Shown piece by piece: positions 4,204 to 17,718 of a DNA stretch of 64,000 nt. The DNA lies in the NCBI RefSeq assembly GCF_013626205.1, contig NZ_QHJE01000001.1, forward strand, positions 2,708,501-2,772,500. The letters run 5' to 3'. Below the pieces are notes generated by a model. The model was not told the origin of the DNA, searched no databases, and was given only the letters and a program-made list of their open reading frames with translations. The stretch is from Hyphomicrobium methylovorum (GTDB taxonomy: Bacteria; Pseudomonadota; Alphaproteobacteria; Rhizobiales; Hyphomicrobiaceae). The translations under genes were made by a program, and so were the position numbers. The first letter of the stretch is position 1. Each line of letters opens with the position of its first letter.

Positions 4204-4296
4204 GGAGACGTGGCCGAGTGGCTGAAGGCAACGGTTTGCTAAATCGTCATACGCTTTAAAGGCGTATCGAGGGTTCGAATCCCTCCGTCTCCGCCA
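4204..4296 (+). tRNA. tRNA-Ser (GCT anticodon)
   Basis: The acceptor stem GGAGACG (4204-4210) pairs with CGTCTCC (4286-4292), followed by discriminator G and an encoded CCA (4294-4296). The D arm is TGGCCGAGTGGCTGAAGGC; the anticodon loop TTTGCTAAA has GCT at 4238-4240. A long variable arm (CATACGCTTTAAAGGCGTATC) marks it as class II serine tRNA, and GGTTCGAATCC is the T loop. Its 3' end is the left attachment site of the integrated element. Confidence 0.95.
4271..4296 (+). repeat. attL: tRNA-Ser 3' end
   Basis: Left copy of the attachment repeat. The last 14 bp (4283-4296) match 17705-17718 exactly, and GGGTTC (4271-4276) also matches with identical spacing. Confidence 0.85.
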
Positions 4297-4340
4297 TAAC
4301 TTATTGATTTCATTGTATTTTTGATGATTTTCTTTGACCG

Positions 4341-4399
4341 GTCATACGCCGAGTCATACTCTAGAATTTTGCTGTGCGTAGCCGTCCGTGCGTGTCCGC
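4341..4399. repeat. Left-end integrase arm-type repeats
   Basis: Two motifs just inside attL recur just inside attR. The first is GTCATAC-NN-CGAGTCATAC (4341-4359), 17 of 19 identical in direct orientation to 17542-17560. The second is a 19-bp sequence (4381-4399, GCCGTCCGTGCGTGTCCGC) that is exactly inverted at 17589-17607. By analogy with other tyrosine integrases these are likely arm or accessory-protein binding sites; that role is inference. Confidence 0.55.
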
Positions 4400-4483
4400 A
4401 CGTGTTCACGCTTCGATGCGTTTGCGTTGAACACGCGCGTTCGTCACCGCATCAACGCGAGTGATGTGGAGGAGTTCACATGC

Positions 4484-4756
4484 TCACGTCATCGACATTG
4501 CTAGATCGCTCTCGATCGAGCGCGCAATCGTTCGCACATCGGGCTCGCTCCAATCATTCGCGACAGCGCGCGCGAGCCAACGCACTTTCCAGGCAAGCGC
4601 ATCGGGCGTGTCGGCGTGCGAAGCGAGAATGTGATCTTCGAGAGAGCGCAGCACATCGTCCGCCACCGCTTCGGGGCCGCCAATCCGTTCGTCGTTCGCT
4701 TCATCAAGTGCGTCGAACGCAGTAATGAGCGCCGCGGTGACCGTTTTGATTTCCAT
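4484..4756 (-). CDS. Hypothetical acidic 90-aa protein
   Basis: A small acidic, helical protein (MEIKTVTAALITAFDALDEAN...). No recognised motif. The ATG at 4756 has a good ribosome site (GAGAGG, five bases upstream), which argues that it is real. It is the first gene inside the left end of the element and is divergent from the 327-aa gene at 4936, with a large perfect palindrome between them. Confidence 0.5.
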   Translation of the reverse strand: MEIKTVTAALITAFDALDEANDERIGGPEAVADDVLRSLEDHILASHADTPDALAWKVRWLARAVANDWSEPDVRTIARSIESDLAMSMT

Positions 4757-4855
4757 GATGCCTCTCTTGACGCCTACGTAGTCGATGCCTGCTGTATGTC
4801 ATGCGACGCACGAGCGTGGGAAAGAGCCTCGGTTTTTGCCTAATAAAATCCGCAC

Positions 4856-4890
4856 ACGGACATATCCGTTGATGCAACGGATATGTCCGT
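4856..4890. promoter_or_regulatory. 35-nt perfect palindrome (operator-like)
   Basis: The 16-bp arm ACGGACATATCCGTTG (4856-4871) is followed by the spacer ATG and its exact reverse complement (4875-4890). It lies in the divergent region between the genes starting at 4756 (-) and 4936 (+), about 45 bases before the latter. There is no T-run, so an operator is more likely than a terminator. Confidence 0.55.
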
Positions 4891-4935
4891 TGGCTGCGGA
4901 CCGTTGACCCTCCGAACCCAGGCGATAAGGTCATC

Positions 4936-5919
4936 ATGGCTCACAGCAGCGACAACGCCCGAAAATTTCTTGAGAGCCTCCATCGGCGCGACCTGGCAAT
5001 ACTGCTTGCACCCTGCGAAGTGTCGATCGACCTCCGACAGAGCGGATTCGACATCGCGCCAGTGGCGCTTGTTCGTGCGCCGACGCCGATTGACGAGGCT
5101 TTGAGAAGGCTGCCTGCCCACGATCGCAAACGCATCGCCGAAGCGGTGGCAAGCAGCGATCCAAGCCAAAGGGCGCCAGATGACATAAAGGTCGAGACCT
5201 TGGGAAACTCGGAAGCCGAGGGAATGGCGCGCCTCTTGGCCGATCTTATCATTCATCGCGAGATGATGATTTCGGTCGCTACGGGCGGCGATCGCATTCA
5301 GGAGGTCGACGATTACTATCGCGCTCGCGACGCCGGCATTCGACGAAGTCTCCCCGATGGCGTTCCCTATGAGAATCCACACGACAGCCTATGGGATTGG
5401 TACAATTATTGGCGCACTAATTTCGACACCTATCGGGGGCGGCGCGAGTACATTCGGAAAATGCTTTCCCCCGCGATCGAGGCGATATCGCAACGCTCTG
5501 TCGTGGCTGACGCGCATCGCGAGCCGACCGGCTGGGAAAGGGTCGACCGGGTGCTTGCCAAAGCACGGAAGCAACTTGAAACTGCGACCGCAGAGGAAGA
5601 TTGCCAAGCCATTGGTCTGCTCTGCCGCGAGGCCATCATATCGCTCGCGCAGGCCGTATTTGATCCTGCAATTCATGCCACATTGGATGGCGTCAAGCCG
5701 AGCATCACCGACGCAAACCGGATGTTGGAGGCGTATGTCCCGCACCAATTCCCCGGCGAAAGCAACAAAGAGGTCCGAGCGCACGCCAGAGCGTCTCTGG
5801 CGCTTGCTCTCAATCTGCAGCACCGTCGCACCGCCACGCCGCAATTGGCAGCGCTATGCGTGGAGGCAACCGCCTCCACCGTGGCAGTGGTGTTGATTAT
5901 CTCGGGTCGGAAAATTTAG
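4936..5919 (+). CDS. Uncharacterised 327-aa protein, possibly HEPN/abortive-infection-like
   Basis: An all-helical-looking cytoplasmic protein. A central aromatic segment (SLWDWYNYWRTNFDTYRGRREYIRKML, around residues 153-180) is followed by a C-terminal helical region with EEDCQAIGLLCREAIISLAQAVF and ARASLALALNLQHRR. This layout resembles the C-terminal domains of abortive-infection and HEPN-type proteins, but I see no clear RxxxxH ribonuclease motif, so the assignment is weak. The ATG at 4936 follows AAGG. It is a single gene with its own palindromic operator-like site, lying in an accessory element next to other possible defence genes. Confidence 0.5.
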   Translation: MAHSSDNARKFLESLHRRDLAILLAPCEVSIDLRQSGFDIAPVALVRAPTPIDEALRRLPAHDRKRIAEAVASSDPSQRAPDDIKVETLGNSEAEGMARLLADLIIHREMMISVATGGDRIQEVDDYYRARDAGIRRSLPDGVPYENPHDSLWDWYNYWRTNFDTYRGRREYIRKMLSPAIEAISQRSVVADAHREPTGWERVDRVLAKARKQLETATAEEDCQAIGLLCREAIISLAQAVFDPAIHATLDGVKPSITDANRMLEAYVPHQFPGESNKEVRAHARASLALALNLQHRRTATPQLAALCVEATASTVAVVLIISGRKI

Positions 5920-5931
5920 CCACAGGCGAAC

Positions 5932-6399
5932 TCATGCACCCGCAATGCGTGCCGCGATGGTTTCGACTTCCGGCGCCAACTTGCGCATAGCGGCTGGCTC
6001 GTCCGAATGGGCGATCCGGCGAGCCACGGCATCTGGATCACGATCGTCGACAACCTTCAAAGCAAACTCATCCGGCGACGTGCCAGCCGCGATTGCAGCG
6101 GCAAGGGTCCGATCATCCGCGCCCATCGCGGTCGCTAGGCGGCGCAGGCGCTCTTCGCGCGAGCCGGTCGGTGCGGGGAGCGGGCGAGCAATTTGGGACA
6201 CTGCGGGCCGTACAGGCGTAATGGGCGGTATGGATGCTACGGGCACGATAAGCGATGCGCTGGCCTCCAAATGCGCCACGCGGAGGCGGTGAGACTCGAG
6301 GTTTTTCTCAACGTACGGCCCGCCAAGGCCAGTGGCGATCTGCGATTCAGTTTCAGCCAGCAATTCGCGCGCGCGGGCGAGCGCTTTGGGATCGGTCAT
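5932..6399 (-). CDS. Hypothetical element protein, 155 aa
   Basis: The N-terminal half is helical (ALARARELLAETESQIATGLGG), followed by a Pro-rich linker and a C-terminal domain with GADDRTLAAAIAAGTSPDEFALKVVDD. Part of that last segment resembles ISDDETLAAAIVAATSKPGD in the neighbouring 148-aa protein (6620-7066), which suggests a shared short domain or duplication. Its start (ATG at 6399) overlaps the stop of the upstream gene by ATGA, so it is translationally coupled. Function unknown. Confidence 0.5.
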   Translation of the reverse strand: MTDPKALARARELLAETESQIATGLGGPYVEKNLESHRLRVAHLEASASLIVPVASIPPITPVRPAVSQIARPLPAPTGSREERLRRLATAMGADDRTLAAAIAAGTSPDEFALKVVDDRDPDAVARRIAHSDEPAAMRKLAPEVETIAARIAGA

Positions 6400-6623
6400 G
6401 TAATGCTCCTACGTGCGACGATGATTGCCGCACGGTCCTGTGCGGTGAGGCGTGCGACCTGATCGAGCGATAAGCCGGTGCAGACAGCCATGATGGTATC
6501 GGCGTCCGCGCCCTGAAGGCCCTCAAGTTCTTCGGCCCTGAGGTTTCTGGCCGAGACATATTCTGTTGCCGGAACGCCCTTCATGCCGCTGTCGATTGGA
6601 AATTCGAGTCGGACCATGCTCAT
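6396..6623 (-). CDS. Phage tail assembly chaperone-like small protein
   Basis: A 75-aa protein (MSMVRLEFPIDSGMKGV...). Its pattern, a beta N-terminus, then ARNLRAEELEGLQGADADTIMAVCTGLSLDQVARLTAQD, resembles the P2 gpE / Mu gp41 tail-assembly chaperone family, in which a Leu-rich helix is followed by a turn and L-x-x-x-D. The ATG at 6623 overlaps the previous stop (ATGA at 6620-6623) and its own stop overlaps the next start, so it is the middle of a tightly coupled three-gene operon. The family assignment is by eye only. Confidence 0.45.
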   Translation of the reverse strand: MSMVRLEFPIDSGMKGVPATEYVSARNLRAEELEGLQGADADTIMAVCTGLSLDQVARLTAQDRAAIIVARRSIT

Positions 6624-7066
6624 GCTGTGGCATTCTCCCAATAGGGTCGGCGATATGTAAGACGTGGCGCCGGCCCGTCTGCCGTGCAGCGGTCGCCGGG
6701 CTTGCTGGTCGCGGCAACAATGGCAGCGGCAAGGGTCTCGTCGTCGCTGATGAAATGCTGGCCCACTTCTTCAAGCTTCTCGCGCACGTCTGCGGGCAAA
6801 TTACTGAGCGGTGGGCATGGGACAAGCCGGTAGCCGAAAACGCCAAGGGCCGCTTCGATCGAGGCGAGGCTGGGGACATTCGGACGAAGCTTGCCGCCGC
6901 CCCTCCACGCCTTCACGGAGGAAGCCAGAATCCCGGAGCGGAATTCTAACTCCTGATACGAGACGCCATGGCGCTTCATGAGTTCGAATGCTAGGCGGGC
7001 GAGCGGATTCGCCTTGGCCGGAATCGTTACTCGGCTTGGCCGGACATAGGGAGCGGGCTTTGACAT
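6620..7066 (-). CDS. HTH-domain protein (XRE-like)
   Basis: A 148-aa protein with a central helix-turn-helix: LARLAFELMKRHGVSYQELEFRSGILASSVKAWRGG (about residues 23-58), followed by PSLASIEAALGVFGYRL, the usual tail of XRE/Cro-type domains. It is probably a DNA-binding regulator. The C-terminal part (ISDDETLAAAIVAAT) resembles a segment of the protein at 5932-6399. First gene of the ATGA-coupled operon 6620/6396/5932. Confidence 0.55.
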   Translation of the reverse strand: MSKPAPYVRPSRVTIPAKANPLARLAFELMKRHGVSYQELEFRSGILASSVKAWRGGGKLRPNVPSLASIEAALGVFGYRLVPCPPLSNLPADVREKLEEVGQHFISDDETLAAAIVAATSKPGDRCTADGPAPRLTYRRPYWENATA

Positions 7067-7240
7067 GCAAACATCATGGCGCGTTGGGTCGCCACTGACG
7101 GGACGGGTCGGGTGGCTCTGGCGGGTTGTGGCTTCGCGCTAAACATGGCTTGATCGCTTGGCGCTACGGACTAGTTGCCCCATCGTGAGCCCCCCCCCAA
7201 CGCGACCGCCTCGCTTTGCTGTCATCGAAAATGAGGAACT

Positions 7241-8665
7241 ATGCTCGCCAAACAGTTGGCCCACATTCTCAATGAACTGTGCGGCAAGAGTGATCTCTCG
7301 ACAGACGCGTTGGCGGACATGGATCAACGGTTTGAGGCGCTGCGCGGCTCGGGCCGCTTACCGAGCGGCCGGGAGAGTCGTGGCCAAAAGCTGTCGGATG
7401 AGCAGATTGTTGCGGGCGTGCTCGGGCTGGTCGCGGGGCGGCCAAGCTGGGCGGGCATGGTGTGCGCGAGCATCGCGCATCTAAAGCCTGTTGGTGGTAA
7501 GGCCGACGCATTTGGCGGCGCCGCTACCTTGACTGATGCATTGAGCAACCTGCTTGCCGACAAGGCAATGCGAGACAGTATCATCGGCGTGCGGCTTTCG
7601 GCGGCGGAGGCAGGAACTAACAGCCATGGGCTGGCAGTGATTACCTACGAACGAGACGGCGCACGGCACCAGCTTTCGTTCGTGCGCGATGAGGCCGTCT
7701 CCCTGCTTCAGCCCGGCGTGAGCTTCGATGCCGAATTACGGAACGCGCCGGTCAGCCGAGAACTTGTTTTCAACCGACGGTTCTTTGAACAACTGGCGCG
7801 AAGAATTGAAGATGCTCGCGCCCACCCATCACCCCCGATCGGCGACGGGTCGGAGTATGACAAAGAGGATGCCGAGAATGCGCGCCGTCAGCGCCTCGGC
7901 GTAACGTCATCGTCGCACTTTCTGAATATCGGCGTGGACAATCAGGTCACGTGGCCGCGCGAGGAAATGCTGGTCAACTTTGACCGATACAAGTTCGTGC
8001 TGATGCCGAAGACTAAGGAGCACGTGCAGTCCATCCATGTCGACCTGCACGCCAACAAGCTCAGCATGGAGGAAGCGATGACGGTGATAAACCGCTTCCT
8101 CAGTCTGCTCACATGGTGCGATGACCAATTCGCAATCGCGCAAGATGGTTGGTCGGGCAATCCGGTGCCCGTCGCCGTGCCAAAGCGAAATCTCGCCTTC
8201 ACCACCACGCATTATTGGGTGTTCGATCGCGATATTCCGGCATCGGAAGAAGCGCAGCGCGCGCTCGCGCTCTATCGCGAAGCGCGCAATGCCGAGCAAA
8301 ATTTCATGATCAGCTATGCGGTGCTCAGCTATTTCAAGGTGCTCGAAGTCCGATACCCCGAAGGAAAGGACATTCGCCCGTGGGTCGCTCGGACGTTCCC
8401 GCTCATTCGTGCCGAGGAAGATGAATCCAATCTGCGTCCATTTCTTGCCGCCTGTGGCAGCGAGACGGTTGAGGACTACTTATGGAAGGCGTGCCGTGTC
8501 GCAGTCGCCCACGTGCGCGAGAAACATCCCTCCGACCCGGATATTGCTGAGGAACTGACGCGATTGCATCACGCGGCCGACATCATGCGCCTGTTCGCCC
8601 GCTACTTCATCCGCCACGAGTTGGGCGTGTCGGACAGCCCGTTCCGCGAGGTCGAGCGCGACTAG
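7241..8665 (+). CDS. MauJ-like large helical protein
   Basis: A 474-aa cytoplasmic protein. The C-terminal half (INRFLSLLTWCDDQFAIAQDGW, then FTTTHYWVFDRDIPASEEAQRALALYREARNAEQNF and YAVLSYFKVLEVRY) resembles proteins annotated in databases as methylamine utilization protein MauJ, a name of unclear function given to many proteins in genomic islands. The helical C-terminus (VEDYLWKACRVAVAHVREKHPS) is HEPN-like in style: R-x-A-V-A-H is reminiscent of the R-x4-H motif but not identical. Placement in the element argues against a metabolic role. Confidence 0.5.
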   Translation: MLAKQLAHILNELCGKSDLSTDALADMDQRFEALRGSGRLPSGRESRGQKLSDEQIVAGVLGLVAGRPSWAGMVCASIAHLKPVGGKADAFGGAATLTDALSNLLADKAMRDSIIGVRLSAAEAGTNSHGLAVITYERDGARHQLSFVRDEAVSLLQPGVSFDAELRNAPVSRELVFNRRFFEQLARRIEDARAHPSPPIGDGSEYDKEDAENARRQRLGVTSSSHFLNIGVDNQVTWPREEMLVNFDRYKFVLMPKTKEHVQSIHVDLHANKLSMEEAMTVINRFLSLLTWCDDQFAIAQDGWSGNPVPVAVPKRNLAFTTTHYWVFDRDIPASEEAQRALALYREARNAEQNFMISYAVLSYFKVLEVRYPEGKDIRPWVARTFPLIRAEEDESNLRPFLAACGSETVEDYLWKACRVAVAHVREKHPSDPDIAEELTRLHHAADIMRLFARYFIRHELGVSDSPFREVERD

Positions 8666-8773
8666 CAGCGCGGCACGAGAGCGATTTTCTATTGTGGGTA
8701 TTCAGATACCCGTATGACGGCCGCGCTTTTCTGCGCGTTTACCTGTGGCTTCTGTTCGTCCGATCGAAACAAA

Positions 8774-8788
8774 GTTGCAAAATGCAAC
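8774..8788. promoter_or_regulatory. Palindrome GTTGC-AAAAT-GCAAC
   Basis: A 15-bp inverted repeat. The same palindrome with one loop base changed occurs at 15902-15916 within the same element, which suggests a common DNA-binding regulator. Confidence 0.4.
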
Positions 8789-8907
8789 TCATCTGCGGGG
8801 GTGTCGCCATTGCGCGTCGACCCGTGACCGTGTGCCGCCCTTGGGAGGACCCACGGTTTTTTACAGGTGTTGACGTGCCAACAAAGTCGCCAACGTGCGC
8901 CCTTGCA

Positions 8908-9483
8908 TTAGTTCTTGGCTGACCAGGCACGGAGCAGCCGGGAATAAACTGTTGGGAAATTCTCTGTCACCGCTCGATCCACAATCTCTAAGGCATCGAA
9001 GCGCGGCTCGATCTTCGCGCCATTCGTTATCCGTCCCAACACGATCAACGGTGTGCGAGTCTTGCCCTTGCGGCGCACGAGCGTGTCACCGATGCGGAAT
9101 GGCTTGCGCTGGGTGCCCTCCGCCCGCCGAAGCATGGCCCTGACCTTGGTGTGTGTGGGCGCCTCGCTGATGTCCCTGTAAGCAGGCACGAACAGCCGGC
9201 CGCCCTTGTGCTCATCAATGCCCTTCACATGTCGAGCGAAAAATTTATCCAGACTGCCAACCTGGGAATTGAGATTGCCGGGTGTCGCCGCGCGGATGCG
9301 CACGCCCCTGTCCAGCCAGGTGTTGCGACGATGGAATAGCGAATGGCCTGCGATCCACGCGGGCTTCGCTTTTTCTGCGACGAAGGTGAGGCTCTTAGCT
9401 GCCATCATGCGGTTCGCCTTCAACAGCGTGCGGAAGCGCGCCAGGTTGCGGCGGTCAAGGGTGAGGCTCAGTTCAGCGGGCAT
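8908..9483 (-). CDS. Phage tail-completion-like protein
   Basis: A 191-aa basic protein. The overall form (N-terminal MPAELSLTLDRRNLARFRTLL, a basic middle, and C-terminal ALEIVDRAVTENFPTVYSRLLRAW) is reminiscent of phage neck or tail-completion proteins; the D-x-A-V-x-E-N-F-P ending recurs in such families. The second ATG (9483) has AAAGGA at better spacing than the one at 9489. It overlaps the end of the zinc-finger gene by about eleven bases, so the two are coupled. The call is by eye. Confidence 0.45.
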   Translation of the reverse strand: MPAELSLTLDRRNLARFRTLLKANRMMAAKSLTFVAEKAKPAWIAGHSLFHRRNTWLDRGVRIRAATPGNLNSQVGSLDKFFARHVKGIDEHKGGRLFVPAYRDISEAPTHTKVRAMLRRAEGTQRKPFRIGDTLVRRKGKTRTPLIVLGRITNGAKIEPRFDALEIVDRAVTENFPTVYSRLLRAWSAKN

Positions 9484-9901
9484 AGACATTCCTTTGATTG
9501 GAAAGGCGACGGCACTCGACGCACGCCGCTGTTGATGACGTGTATCTGAGGCTCCCATGCCGATGGCGACAGTCGGGGCCGAGCCAGGTCGAGAGTCCGG
9601 CGGCAATCGCAGCGAGTCTGCGCGGATCGTTCGCGATGTTGGGGAGTGCCCGGCGTTCGGCCTCCGCTGCTTTTCGGCCGGCGATGGCAGCCTGCCGGGC
9701 TTCGCGCTGTGCGACGACGGCGGGGACGGCTGCACGGCGTCGGGCGGCGTCACGTGAATTGATCCGGCCGCAGTCGATGCAGGCGCCCGTCGAAACGAAG
9801 CGAAAGGCGTCCGGGTGGATCGGGCAATGTGGGCCATGCCATTGCTTCAGGCCGACCGCTTGGGCGGCGAGGCGAGCAGGGTGATTGGTGTGCGATGCCA
9901 T
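9473..9901 (-). CDS. Tandem zinc-ribbon protein
   Basis: The product contains two copies of one Cys/His motif: G-L-K-Q-W-H-G-P-H-C-x2-H, then TGACIDCGR, and G-L-S-T-W-L-G-P-D-C-x2-R-H, then TAACVECRR, separated by a basic Ala-rich helix. Each copy could bind one zinc (C-x2-H...C-x2-C). It is probably a nucleic-acid or protein binding factor of phage type. The ATG at 9901 is chosen; a TTG at 9979 would overlap the upstream stop. Coupled to the downstream tail-like gene. Confidence 0.5.
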   Translation of the reverse strand: MASHTNHPARLAAQAVGLKQWHGPHCPIHPDAFRFVSTGACIDCGRINSRDAARRRAAVPAVVAQREARQAAIAGRKAAEAERRALPNIANDPRRLAAIAAGLSTWLGPDCRHRHGSLRYTSSTAACVECRRLSNQRNVYAR

Positions 9902-9969
9902 GGTGGCATCATGAAAGATAGAAAGTTGAGCGATGGGATTGTTTCGGTGGCGTCGCGCTACGGTCGCCG

Positions 9970-10308
9970 TCAATCCCAAAGCCTTGGCGCCGTCGTCCGA
10001 TCCTTCGTCGGATCGCTCGGCGGCGGCGGATTTTTACAAGCAGCAACATGCTTGTCGAAATCGGCGATGATCCCCTCAATCATGACCGGCGGGAGATCGC
10101 CCATGTCGGCAGCACTCCCGCCAAGCTTTTTTGCGCTAACGCAAGCTGCTGGCTCGCCGTCACCCGTCCATAGTCTATCGCGATCCGGTTCGACCTTGCA
10201 CGCGTCCGCGATTTGCTGTGCCGGCAAGTTCCCAAGCTGATGCACTGCGGCGGCGCAGGAATCGATGGATGGCGTCGCGCTCGCCAACATGAGAATTAAA
10301 CCGATCAT
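9970..10308 (-). CDS. Small secreted protein, hypothetical
   Basis: A 112-aa protein with an N-terminal hydrophobic signal (MIGLILMLASATPSIDSCAAA) and four cysteines in the mature part (IADACKVE, PAACVSA, VAACKNP). The ATG at 10308 is preceded by GGAAGGGG, a strong ribosome site, although the frame is open to 10362. It is probably periplasmic, in the style of phage or element Rz-type or lysis accessory proteins, but no family is recognised. It lies upstream of the zinc-ribbon gene on the same strand. Confidence 0.5.
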   Translation of the reverse strand: MIGLILMLASATPSIDSCAAAVHQLGNLPAQQIADACKVEPDRDRLWTGDGEPAACVSAKKLGGSAADMGDLPPVMIEGIIADFDKHVAACKNPPPPSDPTKDRTTAPRLWD

Positions 10309-10578
10309 TGTGCCCCTTCCGAACGAACATCGCGACGGCCCTCCTGCTCGAATTGATGGCACAGCGCTAGGCCATTGCCACCGTCCGATGATCGATGTTC
10401 GTACCTATGCCGCTCGGCTCAATCGGCCGCATGAGTGTCGAAGGCCGCTGCCGGTCGATTAGAGGAAGCGCTCGCATCGATACAATCCACAACGATGTTC
10501 GCTGCCAGCGAACTTTTGTCGTTGATCGCAGCCCCCGAATCGCCCCATCACGGGTGCAGCCGAAGTAGCAGAACGACA

Positions 10579-10732
10579 AGTCGTCATTCGCTGAGGTCGG
10601 TGACCTTGCGGTGGGCGAAAGCTCACCAAATTAGGCCGCAGTACGCGGCCCCCGCGCGCCGACGACCGCGCGCGGAAAGGGTATCGAGTAGGGTAAAAGC
10701 GTCCCCCGTTCCGTTCCTGTTGCCCGACGACT
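10579..10732 (+). ncRNA. Candidate retron msr-msd RNA
   Basis: A hairpin-dense non-coding stretch upstream of the retron genes. Visible stems: AGGTC/GACCT (10594-10606); GGTGGGC-GAAA-GCTCACC (10610-10627, GNRA loop); GGCCGC/GCGGCC (10634-10650); CCGCGCGC/GCGCGCGG (10652-10675). The ends AGTCGTC (10579-10585) and GACGACT (10726-10732) are complementary and could be the a1/a2 stem. A length near 150 nt fits retron RNAs. A canonical branching-G context is not obvious, so the exact limits are uncertain. Confidence 0.45.
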
Positions 10733-10776
10733 GCATGCGCATCTAGCGCCTGTAGCGACAGGAGGATTGGCAATCG

Positions 10777-10944
10777 ATGCATACTCGCTCGAAAAGCTTC
10801 GGCAGGGGACGTAAGCGGTCTAATTGGCGGATGAAGTTCTGGCAATTGCTAGGACGGATGACGCTCAAACTTCTGATTGTTGTGCCGTATGTCGCAAAGT
10901 TTGTGGATGCGGTGATCGAGATCGCGAAGTGGTTCAAACATTAG
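10777..10944 (+). CDS. 55-aa basic, hydrophobic small protein upstream of the retron genes
   Basis: ATG at 10777 with AGGAGG eleven bases upstream; stop TAG at 10942-10944. The N-terminus is strongly basic (MHTRSKSFGRGRKRSNWRMK), followed by a hydrophobic helix (LLGRMTLKLLIVVPYVAKFVDAVIEIAKWF). It looks like a small membrane-active peptide. It lies between the candidate retron RNA and the XRE gene, so it could be a retron accessory or toxin-like component. The ribosome site overlaps a hairpin (CCTGT-AGCG-ACAGG, 10749-10762), which could limit its translation. Confidence 0.5.
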   Translation: MHTRSKSFGRGRKRSNWRMKFWQLLGRMTLKLLIVVPYVAKFVDAVIEIAKWFKH

Positions 10945-10986
10945 GCGCGCGCCCTACCGCTATCCCCCTTTCTTAAGGAGGCCACG

Positions 10987-11286
10987 ATGATCGGCGATGC
11001 CCTACGCTGTATCCGTAAATTTCATGATCTCAATCAGAGTGCCGCTGCGGAAAAGCTCGGCATATCCAAATCCTATCTCAGCGAAATCGAAAGCGAGACC
11101 AAGGAGCCGACGCTCCAATTGATCCAACGATATGCGGACGTCTTCAAACTGCCGGCATCATCGATCCTGTTTTTCGCCGAGAACTACGCGCAGCCGCAAC
11201 GCCGGGCCGGCGCGCAGAAGATTGTCGCGGGAAAGATTTTGGCGCTGATGCGATTTCTTGAGGCTCGGTCGGAGGAAGCGCCGTGA
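10987..11286 (+). CDS. XRE-family HTH protein, retron accessory
   Basis: A 99-aa protein with a complete XRE/Cro helix-turn-helix at residues 4-60 (LRCIRKFHDLNQSAAAEKLGISKSYLSEIESETKEPTLQLIQRYADVF) and a basic C-terminal tail. AAGGAGG lies seven bases before the ATG. Its stop overlaps the RT start by four bases (11283-11286), so it is translationally coupled to the reverse transcriptase. Retrons with a small HTH partner have been described (called type VI in the classification I recall); here the HTH protein could be regulator or effector. Confidence 0.8.
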   Translation: MIGDALRCIRKFHDLNQSAAAEKLGISKSYLSEIESETKEPTLQLIQRYADVFKLPASSILFFAENYAQPQRRAGAQKIVAGKILALMRFLEARSEEAP

Positions 11287-12176
11287 GCGCGAGAAAATAT
11301 CATGCCCTCCAACAGTCGTCGCTTCATCGTATGCCCACCCGGCGAAAGCTTGCCGAACTGCTTCTCGTCACCCCGGCGGAACTTCGGTTCCTCAGCACAT
11401 CTCAAAACCTGTACCGTCATTTTCCTGCGCCGAAAAAAGACGGCAGCTTCCGCATGATCGACGATCCATGCGCTCAGTTGAAGCGTGCGCAGAAGCGCAT
11501 CGCAAAACTGCTTGGCCGCATATCGCCGCCGGATGCCTTATTCTGTCCGGTGAAGGGGCGCTCATACGTGGGGAACGCCGCCGTGCACCGCGACGGTCGC
11601 GTAGTGCATTCTCTTGACGTGCAGAAGTATTTTCCGAGCACGACGCGCCGTCGCATATATTGGTTTTTCAATACAGTCATGGGATGCCCGGAGGATGTGG
11701 CGGGAACACTCGCCAATCTCGTGTGCTGCGACGGGCATCTCGCCACCGGAAGCCCGGCAAGCCCGATCCTGGCATATTATGCGCACATCGACGTGTGGGA
11801 GAAGGTGGCGTCGCTGGCTAAGGCCAATGGATGTGTACTGTCGATTTATATCGACGACATCACCCTGTCCGGGCCGCACGTGAGTAAGAAACTGGTCTGG
11901 GAGGTGAAGGAATGCATCCACCGGGCCGGCCTTCGGTATCATAAGGAAAAGCGCTCAATCGACCGGGCATGCGAGGTCACGGGCGTTATCATCGACCGCA
12001 CCGAACTTAAGGTTCCGAACCGTCAGCACAAAAAATTGCGTGAAGCGAAACGGGCCAGGGATCGCGATCGGAATTCGAAGGATAGCGCGAAGATCGTTGG
12101 CCGGCTGGCCGGTTTGCAAGGTCAGTTCGACCAGATCGCGAACGGTAATGTTAAGCGACCCGCCGACGTTGGATAA
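11283..12176 (+). CDS. Retron-type reverse transcriptase
   Basis: A 297-aa RT. All retron hallmarks are visible: N-terminal RKLAELLLVTPAELRFL; NAAVH at 98-102 (the NAxxH motif specific to retron RTs); motif A LDVQKYFPST at 111-120; GHLATGSPASPILA at 151-164; catalytic YIDD at 189-192; and VTG at 232-234 (region Y, which binds the msr stem-loop). Retron RTs make a branched RNA-DNA hybrid (msDNA) from an adjacent RNA and act in anti-phage defence with a partner protein. Its GTG start overlaps the XRE stop. Intact length and motifs suggest it is active. Confidence 0.93.
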   Translation: MSARKYHALQQSSLHRMPTRRKLAELLLVTPAELRFLSTSQNLYRHFPAPKKDGSFRMIDDPCAQLKRAQKRIAKLLGRISPPDALFCPVKGRSYVGNAAVHRDGRVVHSLDVQKYFPSTTRRRIYWFFNTVMGCPEDVAGTLANLVCCDGHLATGSPASPILAYYAHIDVWEKVASLAKANGCVLSIYIDDITLSGPHVSKKLVWEVKECIHRAGLRYHKEKRSIDRACEVTGVIIDRTELKVPNRQHKKLREAKRARDRDRNSKDSAKIVGRLAGLQGQFDQIANGNVKRPADVG

Positions 12177-12300
12177 GCAGCCGGCGTGATGCAGGTTTTG
12201 ATCAACGTCAATCTGCGTGCGACGTAAGTTGTCACCAGTTGTCCCTTGCGCGCGCCGTCAAGGGCTCGGTGAAATGCTAGCCAGCCGCGTTGTGTGGCGA

Positions 12301-12573
12301 TTTTCCAATTTTCCAATTTTCCGCAACTAGGCCGATAACGGGAAGCCACCCCCGAACAGGTTCATGCCGTAAAAAAGGGGGGGCTTACCGAAAATTGGAA
12401 AATTGGAATTTTGATACCTGAAATATCGAAACCCTAGGTTTTCCGCGCCTTTCGCGGCAACGCAATTTTCCACTGGCGCGTGGAATTTTGATGGAATTTT
12501 GCAGAAGAAACCCCGCCCGGAGCGCGGGCGGGGGATCAATTTTCCAACCGATTTTCCACTCGCCAGTGGAAAA
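12301..12573. repeat. Iteron-like field of TTTTCCA repeats (possible origin)
   Basis: About ten copies of TTTTCCA or its complement lie in 270 bp: tandem at 12301-12317; inverted tandem at 12391-12410; then near 12466, 12481, 12492, 12540, 12552 and 12567. Two form palindromes: TTCCAC/GTGGAA around 12467-12486 and TTTTCCACT-CGCC-AGTGGAAAA (12552-12573). The region is locally AT-rich and abuts the DUF3987-type replication-like gene, so an origin of replication for the excised element is a reasonable inference. Confidence 0.55.
12504..12533 (-). terminator. Terminator of the DUF3987-type gene
   Basis: Inverted repeat CCCCGCCCG (12511-12519) / CGGGCGGGG (12525-12533) with a 5-nt loop. Read on the minus strand it is followed by TTTCTTCT, about 45 bases after the stop of the 741-aa gene. 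Confidence 0.6.
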
Positions 12574-12576
12574 TTG

Positions 12577-14802
12577 CTAGCTGGCGAAATAGCGTTCGCT
12601 GACCCTTCCGCCCCGCCCCCCGGCTGGTGCAGTTTTCACCAGCCTGACCCGGCCCGCCGCCGTCATGTCGGCCAGCAACTCTTCGCGCATCCGCTTATCG
12701 ATGCCCTTCAGCCTATCGCCGATCCGGCTGGGCTGGATGCCGGCTGCGCTAGCACCCTTGATGACTCGTAGGATTTTCCCATAGGCCGCCGAACGATCAT
12801 TGTCGGCGATCCGGTCGGCGCTCTCACGGATAAGCGTTGCGGTCGAAAGGCGCGCCAGCCGATAGGCCCATTCCATGACGGGGCCAGTGATGACCGGCGC
12901 GCTAGGATTGCAACCAACCGCCACGACAAGCGCCAGCTTCAGAGCATGCTCGCGCACGCGGTTCAGGAACGGCATGGCTTCGGGACTGGCCGAGCTTTCG
13001 GCAGCGTCCAATCCAGCAATGTTGTCCGCGTCAATCTCCTCGGCTTCGGCGTCCAGCGGCACGGTGATGGCCTTGGGCGCGCGATCCGACAAGGTGGCCG
13101 CGAGATTGCCGCCCCTTTCCGCTAACGCTCGCACAGCGTCGACTAGCGCGGCTGGAACATCGTTGGGAGAAAGCCGAGGCTTGACGCGGGCAGGCTTCGG
13201 CCCAGTCACGTCAAGCAGGATGAGGCGCGCCAGCAAGCCATCCGATGCAGAAAGCGATGACAGCGATGACCAGAAGGATTCCGGCGTGCTAGTGCCGGAA
13301 ATCGAGAAGTTCGGTGCGAAAACCTTTGTCGCCGCCTCTCCCGCATATTCGGCGCCTGCAAAGAATGTCCCCGCCGCGCTGAACATTTCGAGCATGTCGT
13401 AGCGGATCATCGCGTTGTGCAAACCTGCCCGGCGGTCATGAATTTGTCCTATGAAACCGCCGAACTCGTCCATGAAGCATGCAACGGCTGGCTCGCGGGC
13501 GACAAGTTTGCGCAGAGCACTGGCGGACATGATCCGCGCTGGGCCGACGTAGCGATCGAGTCCCGCCGCCGCCGACAATGTCTTGATGCGACCGATGGCG
13601 TGGTCCTTGCCATGACCGGAAGGTGCAAGCGTGACGACGTAGTTATTGCTGCGCAGATTCGATGGAGTTGCAAACTTGCGCCCTGCGAGCGTGGCGACAA
13701 AGGTGAGCGCTGCGCCAAGCATGAGTGCGCGGTTTGGCCGGTCGCTGCTGGCCTCCATCCAATCCACGATTTCGCCGACAAGGCCGGGCGGCGAGCAGAG
13801 GTCGGCTAAGCTGTTCTCTACGCTCAGCGGTTCCGGTTCGGGCTCGTCCACTTCAACTGGTGCATTCATCCCGAGCCGCTCGCGCTTTAGGGCTGTGGCG
13901 AGAGCAAGCGCCTCGGGCGTTCCGGCCGTCTGCGCCCTCAGTTCGAGAGCGAGAATGGCTGCAGCCGGATCGAACCCGGCTTCACGCGCTTCTAACGTAG
14001 ATTTTGCCTTTTCGTGCAGCGCTATCGCCGTGTCGTCTGCCTCTTGCCAGCCGCCCGCGAATGGATCGGTGCCCGTTGCAGGCACGTACTGGCGGACAGG
14101 CGGACGGGCGAGGCGAGCGATTGTCTGGCCGGCGATCATGTCGGCGGATTCCTCCGTCAAAAGCGAATGAGCATCACGCAAGGCAGAAGCGAAGTCGGCG
14201 TCGGGTGGGAGAGCCGCGAAAACGGAATCGGCGTCACGCTCCGCCCGCCACTCCGCCATTTCGGCGCGTTCTTTGGCTTCGGCGGCTGCGCGCTCTTCAC
14301 CGCGTCCAAACCAAGCACGCTCAGCCCGCAAATAGCCGAAGGGTGCGGCAAGCATTTCGTCGGCGCGACCAACAGCACTGAGCGCATCGCGCACGGCGTC
14401 GACCATCTCGCCATCATTGGCGAAGGTAGCGCAACGATCGAGCACGAGACGCAACGCCTCCGCGCCATCATCGGCTTGGGCAACCGCATCGGCTGCGATA
14501 GTTGGCAACGCCTCGTTGGTGCCATTGTCGAAAGCATCACTGGCGGCGTCTAACGCGTGTCGCCACGCTCGTTGTTGGCTTGGCGTGTCGGCGGGCAACA
14601 GGCCGTCGGCATAGAGGGCCGACTCGATTTCCTCTAGGGCATCCGGCCGAGGCGTCCCCATCTGGCCGAGGGTGCGCCCGAGCACGACGACCTTGCGGAG
14701 CCGCCCCGGCGCTGGGTCATACGCGGCGACACGGGCGGCGGCGAGGCCACTCAAGGCGACTTCGCAAGTCTCGGAAACAATCATAAACAGAACTCGCTTC
14801 AC
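12577..14802 (-). CDS. DUF3987/YfjI-type ATPase (helicase/primase-like)
   Basis: A 741-aa protein. The first 330 residues are acidic and helical with no recognised fold; the ATPase core follows. Walker A is LAPSGHGKD (392-400) and the Walker B-like segment is ACFMDEFGG (441-449). A winged-helix-like C-terminus (AAGIQPSRIGDRLKGIDKRMREELLADMTAAGRVRLVKT) ends the protein. This matches the DUF3987/YfjI family found in satellites and integrative elements, usually thought to act in element replication. The GTG at 14802 is taken; an ATG at 14784 is an alternative. Iteron-like repeats lie directly downstream. Confidence 0.75.
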   Translation of the reverse strand: MKRVLFMIVSETCEVALSGLAAARVAAYDPAPGRLRKVVVLGRTLGQMGTPRPDALEEIESALYADGLLPADTPSQQRAWRHALDAASDAFDNGTNEALPTIAADAVAQADDGAEALRLVLDRCATFANDGEMVDAVRDALSAVGRADEMLAAPFGYLRAERAWFGRGEERAAAEAKERAEMAEWRAERDADSVFAALPPDADFASALRDAHSLLTEESADMIAGQTIARLARPPVRQYVPATGTDPFAGGWQEADDTAIALHEKAKSTLEAREAGFDPAAAILALELRAQTAGTPEALALATALKRERLGMNAPVEVDEPEPEPLSVENSLADLCSPPGLVGEIVDWMEASSDRPNRALMLGAALTFVATLAGRKFATPSNLRSNNYVVTLAPSGHGKDHAIGRIKTLSAAAGLDRYVGPARIMSASALRKLVAREPAVACFMDEFGGFIGQIHDRRAGLHNAMIRYDMLEMFSAAGTFFAGAEYAGEAATKVFAPNFSISGTSTPESFWSSLSSLSASDGLLARLILLDVTGPKPARVKPRLSPNDVPAALVDAVRALAERGGNLAATLSDRAPKAITVPLDAEAEEIDADNIAGLDAAESSASPEAMPFLNRVREHALKLALVVAVGCNPSAPVITGPVMEWAYRLARLSTATLIRESADRIADNDRSAAYGKILRVIKGASAAGIQPSRIGDRLKGIDKRMREELLADMTAAGRVRLVKTAPAGGRGGRVSERYFAS

Positions 14803-14846
14803 AGGCTGTCGGGCGCTGCAACGCCCGGTTTAGGTTAGAGATTAAA

Positions 14847-14873
14847 GGCGGCCGGGCTCATCCCTCGGCCGCC
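14847..14873. other. GC-rich hairpin between element genes
   Basis: GGCGGCCG / CGGCCGCC with an 11-nt loop, followed by GCATTTTT on the plus strand. It lies between the 220-aa gene and the DUF3987-type gene, both on the minus strand. It may be an attenuator or terminator, but the T-run is on the wrong strand for these genes. Confidence 0.35.
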
Positions 14874-14989
14874 GCATTTTTATGAGCGTCCGCGATTTCA
14901 AAGATGCGGGCGGCGAACCGACGGGCCATCGCAGCTGATAGGTCCGGCCGTCGCGGCAAACGGCTGACACATGGCGGCGAGCACCGCGC

Positions 14990-15652
14990 TCACAGTGGGT
15001 GGCCTTCAAGACCGACCAACTTGATTGCATTGGCGAAGCGCGTGGGCATCTCGCCGGGCAATTCGTGCTCTTCGCGGATCGTGTCGACGACTTCGCGCTG
15101 CATGCGATCCTTGGCCTTCACCACCAGCCCGTTGGCGTCGTGCGTCATGTCGGAGCCGAACCGGCGGCCGGTGGGGTCGAACCACGCGGCCACGGTTTCA
15201 GTGATCGCGGGGACAACCCGGCCGGGTTTTCGCCTGACCCTCATTTCCGCATCGTCGACGCCAGCCGCTCGGGCGCGTTCGCGGTGCGCTTCCAGCTTAT
15301 CGATTTTGGCCTTCATCTTCACGCTATCGGCCACAATCTCGCGGACCAAGAGCTCATATTGCTTGACTTCTTTTTCGGCCGCGATTTTTTCGCCGGCTGC
15401 CGCCTTCTTCGCCGCCTCTTCGTCCAGCCGTGCGGCTACGCCCTGCCAGTGAGTGACCACTCCAGCCGCGATATCGACATCGCGGGCAAGCGCTGCGTCG
15501 GTCGCGTCCCATTCTTTGATGGCGCTGAAATCGCCTGGATCGGCTGGAGCTAGCCGATGTGCGTCGAGGCTCGCAACAGCAAGTGCATGATGACTAACGG
15601 CGGTATCCAGCGCTTTGTGGGCTTTGTCCTCGTGGGATGCAAAAATGCTCAT
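14990..15652 (-). CDS. Coiled-coil element protein, 220 aa
   Basis: Residues 60-140 form a long charged helix with heptad character (HWQGVAARLDEEAAKKAAAGEKIAAEKEVKQYELLVREI...), followed by a basic segment (RVRRKPGRVV) and a helical C-terminus. It is probably a cytoplasmic structural or DNA-transaction accessory protein. No family recognised. Its start overlaps the stop of the HTH gene upstream (ATGA, 15649-15652). Confidence 0.55.
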   Translation of the reverse strand: MSIFASHEDKAHKALDTAVSHHALAVASLDAHRLAPADPGDFSAIKEWDATDAALARDVDIAAGVVTHWQGVAARLDEEAAKKAAAGEKIAAEKEVKQYELLVREIVADSVKMKAKIDKLEAHRERARAAGVDDAEMRVRRKPGRVVPAITETVAAWFDPTGRRFGSDMTHDANGLVVKAKDRMQREVVDTIREEHELPGEMPTRFANAIKLVGLEGHPL

Positions 15653-15819
15653 GCGCGCGCCCCCTGCATCAACGTTTCAGCCGCGATGATGGCGGCGGGG
15701 CTGAAGATGGTGCGGCGGGGGCTGATACGCTCGCCAGCCGGTAGCATTCCCGCGCGTTCCCAATTATAGATCGTGACGCGATCGACGCCGATGTGTCGCG
15801 CAAGTTGACTTCTGTTCAC
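15649..15819 (-). CDS. MerR/AlpA-like excisionase-type HTH
   Basis: A 56-aa protein that is essentially one helix-turn-helix: VNRSQLARHIGVDRVTIYNWERAGMLP, followed by FSPAAIIAAETLM. The size and the N-W-E-R-A-G-M-L-P turn suit MerR-like or AlpA-type regulators and excisionases of integrative elements. The GTG at 15819 has AAGGGA at good spacing; the longer frame to 15873 lacks one. It precedes and is coupled to the 220-aa gene. A palindrome 80 bases upstream may be its operator. Confidence 0.6.
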   Translation of the reverse strand: MNRSQLARHIGVDRVTIYNWERAGMLPAGERISPRRTIFSPAAIIAAETLMQGARA

Positions 15820-15898
15820 TCCGAGTCCCTTCGTTGAAGTGGATGACGGGGAGCAAGATAGCCGCTTCAACAAACGCTAGAGGGCGGTTTGGGTGGCG

Positions 15899-15919
15899 TC
15901 GGTTGCAAAACGCAACCGA
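15899..15919. promoter_or_regulatory. Palindrome TCGGTTGC-AAAAC-GCAACCGA
   Basis: An 8-bp arm inverted repeat located upstream of the HTH gene that starts at 15819. Its core GTTGC-AAAAN-GCAAC is shared with 8774-8788. Operator-like. Confidence 0.45.
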
Positions 15920-16072
15920 TTAAGGACGGCGGCGGATGCTGACGGACAAGCCGCACGATCTTTTTTTGGCGGGATCGCACTGACGAGCCGCGCTCCAGCC
16001 ATTCGCACCATTGATCGACGCAGTTGGAGCCAAGTCGCCGACCGAGTCGCGACTCGGCAACGACCAAGCCGC

Positions 16073-16252
16073 TCACCGCCCGCGCGTGCTGCACACCTTG
16101 AATGCCCGCTTGATCGCATCCGGCATGTCGTCGCCACGCTTGGCGCGCGCGAAGTCGGCCTTCGTCCATTCGGGGTTGTCTTCATCGACGACAGGCTCAT
16201 CGAAATCAGGCGCGTCTTGAGGATTTTTGTCCTTGTCCATCTCTTTGTCCAT
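16073..16252 (-). CDS. BrnA-like antitoxin, orphan
   Basis: A 59-aa acidic protein: an Asp-rich N-terminus, then DNPEWTKADFARAKRGDDMPDAIKRAF, which resembles the BrnA antitoxin signature (N-P-E-W-T-x-x-D-F-A-R-A). BrnA proteins are DNA-binding antitoxins of BrnT ribonucleases; no BrnT gene is seen next to it. The ATG at 16252 is ten bases downstream of the integrase stop on the same strand, so it is probably co-transcribed. The ribosome site is weak. The short C-terminus suggests that the usual ribbon-helix-helix domain is missing. Confidence 0.55.
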   Translation of the reverse strand: MDKEMDKDKNPQDAPDFDEPVVDEDNPEWTKADFARAKRGDDMPDAIKRAFKVCSTRGR

Positions 16253-16261
16253 CGCCGCACT

Positions 16262-17503
16262 CTAACCCGCCGCCTGGAATGGCACCACGTTGGCACTGGC
16301 GCCTTCCGTCAGATATTTTGCCCAAGCCTCCATTAGCGCGCGACGACGCTCGATCGCTGTCCCGCGCCGGTAAGCGCGCTCGGCTTTGTTTTCGATCGTA
16401 TGAGCCAACGCCTGTTCAACAAGTTCGCGTGGAAAATTAGTGGCGTCGCCAGCCCAGTCGCGGAACGTCGACCTCCAGCCGTGTACGGTGATGTCGCCAT
16501 GATCCATTCGGCGTAAGAGCATCGTCATCGCCATGTTCGATCGCGCCGCGCCGCCAACGGCAAAAATGAGATCATTGGATTTCGGCTTCTCCGGCTTGAG
16601 CGCTTCCAACAATGAGATAGCCGCGTGACACAAGGGCGCGACGTGCTCAAATCCGGCTTTCATGCGCGCAGCCGGCACAGTCCAAATCTTCTCCTCGAAA
16701 TTGATTTCGCCCCACATAGCACCAAGTGCTTCGCCCGAGCGTGCCGCCGTCAAGATCACGAATTCAAGACACCGTGCCGCGAGTGCAGGGCGCTTCCGTA
16801 GCTCGACCATGAAGGCAGTCGCCTCTTTGTATGGGAGAGCGGCATGATGGCCCCGCGCCAGCTTCGGCTGCTTCGGCAATAGGAGCGCGAGATGCCCCCG
16901 CCATGCGGCCGGATTCATCGCGTCCCGCGGCCGCAGACCGCGCGCCTTGGCGGCGTCCAGAATTTTTTCGATACGACCGCGCACGCGGCTGGCGGTTTCC
17001 GCCTTCGCCAGCCAAACCGGCTGAAGCACGGCGAGCACATCGTCTGTGCCGATGTCGGCGATCGGCATGTTCTTGAGCGGGGCCGCGTGGTCGCGCAGGG
17101 AGCTATGCCATTGCTGCCGATGGACTTCGTTGCGCCAGCCGCCTTCGACGCTCTTGATATAATCCTCGGCGAACTTGCCAAAGGTCACGACTTCCGCCGA
17201 AGTCTCAGGCTCCTTAGCCGTCGCCCGATCGGCGATGGGATCACGGCCCTCCAATAGTTTCTGCCGAGCATCGGCGGCAAGATCGCGTGCCCGCGCTAGG
17301 GATACGTCGGGATATGTACCGAACCCCATTTCGCGCCGCTTGCTGCCGGAGCGGATGACGAAGAACCACGTCAGACTTCCTGTCTTTCGAATCCGCAGAT
17401 GCAGCCCACCGCCGTCCGCGAGCACCTTGTCCTTAGCCTTTGGGTCCCTTGCCTTCTTTTCAGCCGACTTGATGCCTGCATCGGTCAGTTTGTTGAGAGC
17501 CAT
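16262..17503 (-). CDS. int: P4-type tyrosine integrase
   Basis: A 413-aa recombinase. N-terminal DUF4102-like arm-binding domain (LADGGGLHLRIRKTGSLTWFF and GFGTYPDVSLARARDLA), core-binding domain, then the catalytic domain with Arg255 (LTAARSGEAL), His341-x-x-Arg344 (HGWRSTFRDW), His368 (LAHTIENKAERAY) and nucleophile Tyr378. All catalytic residues are present, so it is probably active. It should integrate and excise the element at tRNA-Ser. It is transcribed away from attR into the element; the ATG at 17503 lies about 190 bp from attR, a spacing that leaves room for arm sites. Confidence 0.93.
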   Translation of the reverse strand: MALNKLTDAGIKSAEKKARDPKAKDKVLADGGGLHLRIRKTGSLTWFFVIRSGSKRREMGFGTYPDVSLARARDLAADARQKLLEGRDPIADRATAKEPETSAEVVTFGKFAEDYIKSVEGGWRNEVHRQQWHSSLRDHAAPLKNMPIADIGTDDVLAVLQPVWLAKAETASRVRGRIEKILDAAKARGLRPRDAMNPAAWRGHLALLLPKQPKLARGHHAALPYKEATAFMVELRKRPALAARCLEFVILTAARSGEALGAMWGEINFEEKIWTVPAARMKAGFEHVAPLCHAAISLLEALKPEKPKSNDLIFAVGGAARSNMAMTMLLRRMDHGDITVHGWRSTFRDWAGDATNFPRELVEQALAHTIENKAERAYRRGTAIERRRALMEAWAKYLTEGASANVVPFQAAG

Positions 17504-17541
17504 GTCGCGTCACCTCCGTCACGCGCCATAACCAATTCGCG

Positions 17542-17607
17542 GTCATACTTCGAGTCATACTTTTTATCGTGGTTTTCGCCGGATAGCGGCGGACACGCAC
17601 GGACGGC
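17542..17607. repeat. Right-end integrase arm-type repeats
   Basis: GTCATAC-NN-CGAGTCATAC (17542-17560) is a direct near-copy of 4341-4359, and the 19-bp sequence at 17589-17607 is the exact reverse complement of 4381-4399. Both lie between the integrase start and attR. Confidence 0.55.
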
Positions 17608-17692
17608 ATACCCGGAATAATTCCGTGTATTAATTTGTTATTCAATGATTTAAGAATTTTAAGAGCGCCGCATATCAAGCCCTTGGAAAGCT

Positions 17693-17718
17693 GGGTTCTA
17701 CGGACTCCGTCTCCGCCA
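17693..17718 (+). repeat. attR: partial tRNA-Ser 3' end
   Basis: CTCCGTCTCCGCCA at 17705-17718 is identical to the tRNA end, with GGGTTC at 17693-17698 in register. The six bases between differ, so only the crossover core and part of the T arm are kept. Confidence 0.85.

Follow-up and report, generated by a model that had tools for sequence, protein, structure and literature searches.

A type VI retron in Hyphomicrobium methylovorum and the small peptide, structured RNA and probable operator of its family

The stretch of DNA analysed here (the window, 64,000 nucleotides from Hyphomicrobium methylovorum) holds a locus which, on comparison with model families and with relatives, is a real, intact and ordinary member of retron type VI. 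Type VI is reportedly a retron class in the classification of Mestre et al. 2020, and the window locus, belonging to a type that is known and little studied, is a good setting for defining the family, which gains a defined RNA, a likely operator and a shared peptide. The comparison gives the order of the unit as operator and promoter, RNA (a1, msr, msd and a2), a hairpin, and then the genes for the peptide, the XRE protein and the RT (Table 1). The reading that we prefer, to which we give an even chance, is that of an auto-regulated abortive-infection retron in which the peptide would be the effector.

Table 1. Window coordinates of the parts of the type VI retron and of its apparent carrier
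Feature	Position	Strand	Basis or remark
Apparent integrative element, 13.4 kb, between 14-bp repeats CTCCGTCTCCGCCA	4283..17718	.	right end tentative
Palindrome GTTCGCTGCCAGCGAAC, predicted XRE operator	10497..10513	+	14/14 defined bases; kept in relatives
Promoter-like site TTGATC, 18 nt, CATCAC; weak	10522..10551	+	adjoins operator
a1 arm CAGAACG	10569..10575	+	pairs with 10712-10719, one bulged base; family test
msr hairpin 1, GAGGUC/GACCUU	10593..10607	+	covariation
msr hairpin 2, GGUGGGC/GCUCACC	10610..10627	+	covariation
msd region: G+C-rich hairpins 10634-10650 and 10652-10675, then conserved tail	10628..10711	+	folding; predicted extent
a2 arm CGTTCCTG	10712..10719	+	duplex with a1, family test
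Leader hairpin, core outer stem CCUGUUGC/GCGACAGG	10716..10762	+	cognate-arm pairing test
55-aa peptide, charge +11, hydrophobic C-terminal half; proposed effector	10777..10944	+	ORF, family comparison
XRE/Cro-type HTH protein, HTH_VI, 99 aa	10987..11286	+	PADLOC HTH_VI 1.1e-31, Pfam HTH_3 4.1e-11
Retron RT, RT_VI, 297 aa, GTG start	11283..12176	+	PADLOC, motifs, tree

NAxxH, YxDD and VTG motifs mark retron RTs, and the set that the original prediction had read in this RT was confirmed, with NAAVH at 98, YIDD at 189 and VTG at 232, as were the 4-nt overlap of the XRE and RT genes and the 55-aa ORF upstream of the XRE gene. When compared with the PADLOC models, the RT matched RT_VI at 8e-87 (289 bits), the next type following at 4e-41 (139 bits), and the XRE protein matched HTH_VI with 107 bits. 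These scores, with the RT motifs, place the locus in retron type VI as the PADLOC models define it and bear out the claim that a retron of the small-HTH type is present and intact; its RT_VI and HTH_VI matches lie far above those to other types. The best of 12 solved-chain matches to the RT were the retron RTs Ec67 (2e-17) and Ec86 (1e-14), none of the 12 being close to the window RT (best 67 bits). What fell was the further claim of a candidate new defence system, which we rejected on the PADLOC type VI match and because type VI is already described in passages of PMC8541194. In those passages (PMC8541194, 2021) the RT of a type VI retron is accompanied by small auxiliary proteins and a DNA-binding protein, and in phage type VI retrons the HTH gene overlaps the RT gene. 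Since a small auxiliary protein is thereby already given to type VI, the 55-aa peptide is not the extra component, foreign to described types, for which it had been taken; a candidate was found at all 40 loci where one could be sought. The original prediction also began the locus too late, at 10579: the palindrome is found at 10497, and a relative from the same genus (L058; loci are numbered with the prefix L) shares homologous DNA, 79% identical, over window positions 10452-11990, from just before the operator into the RT. No ORF of at least 80 aa started within 250 nt after the window RT on the RT strand.

Relatives were gathered by RT_VI searches, in which 8 of 385 genomes of the class (E 1e-50), 12 of 397 of the order (1e-50), 13 of 398 of the phylum (1e-60) and 6 of 103 of the family (1e-55) had a match, the window's own genome being included in each count. 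The 59 relatives comprise 36 genome loci, the only two RT relatives confirmed in genome_contigs, and 21 phage or plasmid loci picked among 44 phage and 180 plasmid records with an RT_VI match; none was confirmed in viral_contigs, where the search patterns were drawn from one sequence. Two copies of the window locus (L003, L004) were dropped before counting. Near copies were kept in the counts for L036/L037 and, for peptide and operator, L039/L040; L040, the near copy of L039, was removed from the RNA, permutation and promoter tests.

An HTH gene lies upstream of the RT in 44 of the 60 loci (59 relatives and the window) and is missing from 16. In a tree of 54 of the 60 RTs, which leaves out six of at least 420 aa, all from loci without HTH, 41 HTH-bearing RTs form one clade with support of 100/100, and the window RT pairs with L058 and then with L060. 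Two of the checks proposed with the original prediction came out in its favour: the RT falls among retrons of one type, and the layout of RNA, small ORF, XRE gene and RT gene is conserved. L049, L050 and L052, with a weaker HTH match, stand outside the clade together with the 10 kept loci without HTH; they have no palindrome of at least 11 matching bases and carry a longer, unlike ORF at the peptide position. These three RTs, which are accompanied by an XRE-like gene, possibly represent another retron kind.

Some loci hold further genes behind the RT. A TIR-domain gene, perhaps a second effector, lies 19 nt after the RT in L036 (L036:2893-3858) and L037 (L037:2893-3858) and 79 nt after it in L032 (L032:2968-3927); Pfam confirmed the domain in L032 and L036, and L032 and the L036/L037 pair sit on separate branches of the RT tree. 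Another type VI RT is followed after 38 nt by an ORF with a nucleotidyltransferase fold (L045:2454-2774; NTP_transf_2, 4e-12), and one on a Scytonema plasmid is followed after 16 nt by a 254-aa gene (L034:2902-3666) with no Pfam match at E 0.01.

Upstream of the peptide gene, window positions 10564-10780 fold 3.2 SD below the mean of dinucleotide shuffles, with 0 of 200 shuffles as low, and this fold, together with covarying helices, bears out the hairpin-rich region of the original prediction as a real RNA. We aligned 30 upstream regions of HTH loci, leaving out 13 of the 44 (L006, L008, L025, L029, L036, L037, L038, L041, L043, L048, L049, L050 and L052). The consensus reads as a purine-rich a1 stretch, UCGUCAUUCnCUG, hairpin 1, CGCGG, hairpin 2 and CUACC. 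Over 13 msr pairs, 91.7% of cells were standard pairs compared with 66.2 in shuffles, 117 cells were changed on both sides compared with 35.2, and the covariation score was 0.75 compared with 0.27 in shuffles and 0.14-0.22 in slid versions, the structure having been drawn from the same sequences that were scored. The number of msr pairs with a double change, 10 of the 13 tested, was not above shuffles (mean 9.6). Comparison supports a retron RNA at this place, with covariation in the two msr hairpins.

A model of this RNA, R1, scored 49.4 bits on the window at 10564-10639, the window being one of the model's sequences. Among 14 left-out HTH loci, namely the 13 outside the alignment and L040, it found the msr at the expected place in seven (L006, L025, L029, L036, L037, L038 and L040), a count in which L036 and L037 are near copies of each other and L040 is one of L039; the model missed L008, L041, L043, L048, L049, L050 and L052. 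At E < 0.1 it found none of the 16 loci without HTH, with one match at 0.88 in L010. Swapped-arm tests in narrow settings support the a1/a2 stem: cognate arms outdid swapped ones in five such settings, with 0, 4, 10, 127 and 192 of 20000 permutations reaching the observed value, and the test over wide windows was not significant (4030/20000). Across the family the msd region, in the interval between a1 and a2, is variable and forms hairpins on folding, and the consensus of its conserved tail is AGGGUAAACCGU. A literature search covering titles and the openings of abstracts met no operator or RNA of type VI retrons.

The exact pattern of the palindrome before this RNA has a single match in the 3.44-Mb genome, at the retron locus. 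Its family consensus, GTTCGCTnnnAGCGAAC, was matched at 11 or more of 14 bases in 31 of 43 loci, compared with 1.9% of 860 shuffles and one of 43 stretches downstream of the RT; the consensus was derived from the same loci that were scored, L043 was not counted because its record is too short, and the variant in L060 was set by hand. In 30 of the 31 loci the palindrome lies 488-560 nt before the XRE start, and in L034 at 616. Within 14 nt downstream of the operator, 18 of 35 loci have the start of a TTGAC word, compared with 1.7% of shuffles. In 11 of 35, where 3.0 were expected, the 46 nt that follow hold a second half-site, which in seven of the 11 is 14-15 nt after the operator; both tests were run without L008, L025, L029, L040, L041, L043, L049, L050 and L052. 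The conserved palindrome beside a -35 box is probably the XRE operator. In the P2-like phage copies L025 and L029 the msr is kept and the palindrome is absent. When the recognition helix is located by eye, these two have PKEKIVELE at the place of SKSYLSEIE in the window; the absence of the palindrome together with a changed helix, in two related phages, is the strongest indication that XRE and palindrome belong together. Since in loci with a TTGAC box the second site at 14-15 nt falls behind that box, repression is likelier than activation, and the XRE protein may nevertheless act at the operator as an activator. An Enterococcus copy (L041) has the same half-sites in the opposite arrangement (AGCGAATTTAATTCGCT), some 545 nt ahead of its XRE gene. 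Within the msd region half-sites were not enriched (9 of 30 loci compared with 8.2 expected), so that direct capture of XRE by msDNA is without support, and we rejected for now the idea of an msDNA carrying XRE sites.

The promoter-like site of the window scored 7/12, on a par with controls (mean 6.6), as would be expected if this were a silent copy with RT, XRE and peptide intact and a promoter too weak to serve them. We hold this to be very improbable: the three ORFs are open, the RNA helices and operator are intact, and L058, at 79% DNA identity, has a peptide 91% identical to that of the window, with a pS of 0.14 and a pN of 0.04.

Ahead of the XRE gene, 40 of the 41 clade loci carry an ORF of 47-67 aa whose product is hydrophobic and positively charged; the 41st, L043, is in a record that begins too near, so that the peptide could be sought in 40. 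In these the ORF ends 26-66 nt before the XRE start, and in its product a hydrophobic stretch comes after a basic one. A peptide profile, trained on the same family, matched at E < 0.05 in 33 of the 41 clade loci and scored 0.2-1.7 in L006, L024, L036, L037 and L041; the peptides of these five and of L007 and L038 were assigned by place, size and make-up, and start codons were picked by rule. Since ORFs of at least 30 aa are common there (67 ended in the searched place in 44 loci), the seven peptides assigned by place are weaker evidence. A chance ORF was rejected as an explanation given the 33 profile matches at one place and a pN below pS in 9/9 chosen family pairs, which share members; the substitution pattern indicates that the peptide changes fast, but as a protein. 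The window peptide had no match in the Pfam, NCBIfam, PADLOC and PHROGs models. No enzyme-like effector gene occurs in the shared unit of the type VI loci compared, and by gene content the unit offers no effector candidate other than the peptide and the XRE protein itself.

The make-up of the peptide leaves room for a different division of labour. Family medians are 54 residues, a charge of +8 and a best 19-residue hydropathy of 1.5 (the window peptide has 1.92 and +11), and a mean hydropathy of at least 1.6 over 19 residues is reached in 19 of 40 peptides only, so the peptide might bind a surface or nucleic acid. On this view the XRE protein could serve as sensor or effector, much as DNA-binding partners do in other types of retron, and the peptide would be an accessory, either tethering the complex to the membrane or using its basic half to bind msDNA. 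The basic character of the stretch before the hydrophobic part (median charge +6) and the mild hydropathy of about half of the family fit such roles. We regard this as possible and somewhat unlikely, since an operator beside the promoter and the phages with an altered helix point to XRE as a regulator, and a candidate peptide gene in 40 of 40 testable loci is much for an accessory.

In the preferred reading, with the peptide as effector, the RT would make branched, 2'-5'-linked msDNA from the retron RNA, and the XRE protein would bind the palindrome beside the -35 box and repress its own transcript. RT, msDNA and XRE would jointly restrain the peptide. If a phage were to bind or damage the msDNA, or to titrate XRE, the peptide would be made or freed and would then act on the membrane and halt the cell, amounting to abortive infection. 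Comparison backs the operator, the RNA and the peptide of this scheme; the msDNA, the toxicity, the trigger and the defence we infer.

The leader hairpin raises the prospect of a closer coupling between these parts. In the minimum-energy fold of the window it spans 10710-10766, its 3' foot overlapping the Shine-Dalgarno sequence AGGAGG (10760-10765) and its 5' foot overlapping a2. Across the family its arms covary: they pair better with their own partners than with those of other loci (0/20000 permutations), and 19 of 30 cognate pairs rank in the top three, by which test the leader hairpin is real. Single-sequence folding has a2 reaching the 5' arm of the hairpin in 19 of 30 loci and at least three Shine-Dalgarno bases paired in 25 of 30. 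Under a stricter control, the probability that the Shine-Dalgarno sequence is paired is 0.97 in the window compared with 0.61 in the control, and for the family 0.70 compared with 0.62 in shuffles, lying above the control in 20 of 30 loci; this weakens the case for its closure as a family trait, which seems little above chance. That the hairpin is used as a switch is a conjecture. It belongs to a wider view, which we consider unlikely, of type VI retrons as peptide-armed switches in which RNA, XRE operator and leader hairpin form one circuit: a2 would also reach an arm able to close the ribosome site of the peptide gene, so that RNA folding or reverse transcription would set translation of the peptide and XRE would set its transcription. 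Other retron types have been described as holding their toxin in a protein complex, and were the switch view true, a toxin would be gated by RNA and promoter control and not only by such a complex.

The retron is likely to lie inside an integrative element, as had been claimed. A tRNA-Ser gene occupies 4204-4296, and its 3' end (4283-4296) is repeated exactly, over 14 bp, at 17705-17718; this repeat is modest by itself (BLAST E 0.11 in the window). A tyrosine integrase is encoded on the minus strand at 16262-17503, with the right repeat 200 nt outside its start, and a phage-type primase lies between the ends. A scan of nine other element and peptide proteins gave a weak minor tail protein match for that at 8908-9837 and no match to a major capsid family; a small HTH gene (15652-15873) weakly matched the terminase small subunit, excisionase and MerR-like families. 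On these grounds the carrier would appear to be a satellite or a small integrative element, with the type VI retron apparently as its cargo. Two near-repeats of the tRNA-Ser end or flank (17513-17532, 20 nt at 90%; 17540-17561, 22 nt at 91%) adjoin the integrase start and are perhaps integrase arm sites or another end of the element, and it is because of them that the right end is tentative. The element also encodes a 474-aa protein (7241-8665) with a C-terminal MauJ domain (PF17419, 1.3e-24) and a 327-aa protein (4936-5919) for which PADLOC, Pfam, NCBIfam and PHROGs gave nothing above cut-off. Immediately to the right of the element, at 18188-20526, DNA of lower G+C (0.51-0.54) holds two ORFs that look glycosyltransferase-like by eye.

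Such a setting also bears on what the retron is for. It could serve mobile elements as a regulatory module or as one of maintenance (addiction), with defence against phage not its main task; the peptide would then kill cells that lose the element. The window copy is in an apparent element, relatives are found on phages and plasmids, and toxin-antitoxin genes lie within 2 kb in 4 of 15 plasmid stretches (L031, L039, L040 and L044). Other retron types serve in anti-phage defence, however, and we judge addiction quite improbable as the main role.

Should the peptide prove to be the effector, type VI would offer a retron that stops the cell by a single short peptide. With a shared peptide, a structured RNA and a likely control site, the mode of action of type VI becomes testable, and the compact unit, of about 1.7 kb, is clonable and can be cut into parts.

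Compared with type VI retrons at large, the window locus has the same RT type, the same overlap of XRE/HTH and RT genes and a small auxiliary gene upstream, and we found no difference that sets it apart; what we describe for the type VI family are the predicted operator, the covariation in the RNA and the leader hairpin. The retroelements of Shewanella phage MuM16-1 (L027), P2-like ST147-VIM1phi7.1 (L029) and P2_2H1 (L025), which are named in passages of PMC8541194, have the same order of small ORF, XRE and RT. The msr model fits L025 and L029 and has L027 among its members; unlike the window, L025 and L029 have no palindrome and an altered recognition helix. The MuM16-1 record gives gene p31, a name that PMC8541194 uses as well, a length of 284 aa and places it on the opposite strand; it has no annotation for the 48-aa ORF (L027:1489-1635). 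As in Retron-Eco4 (Ec48, type IV), the window peptide would act through the membrane. The effector of Retron-Eco4 is larger, with two transmembrane segments, and its RT is of a different type. Hok, TisB and Ldr are among the peptides of type I toxin-antitoxin systems, with which the window locus shares a short hydrophobic peptide behind a structured leader; control would here rest on the XRE protein and the retron RNA.
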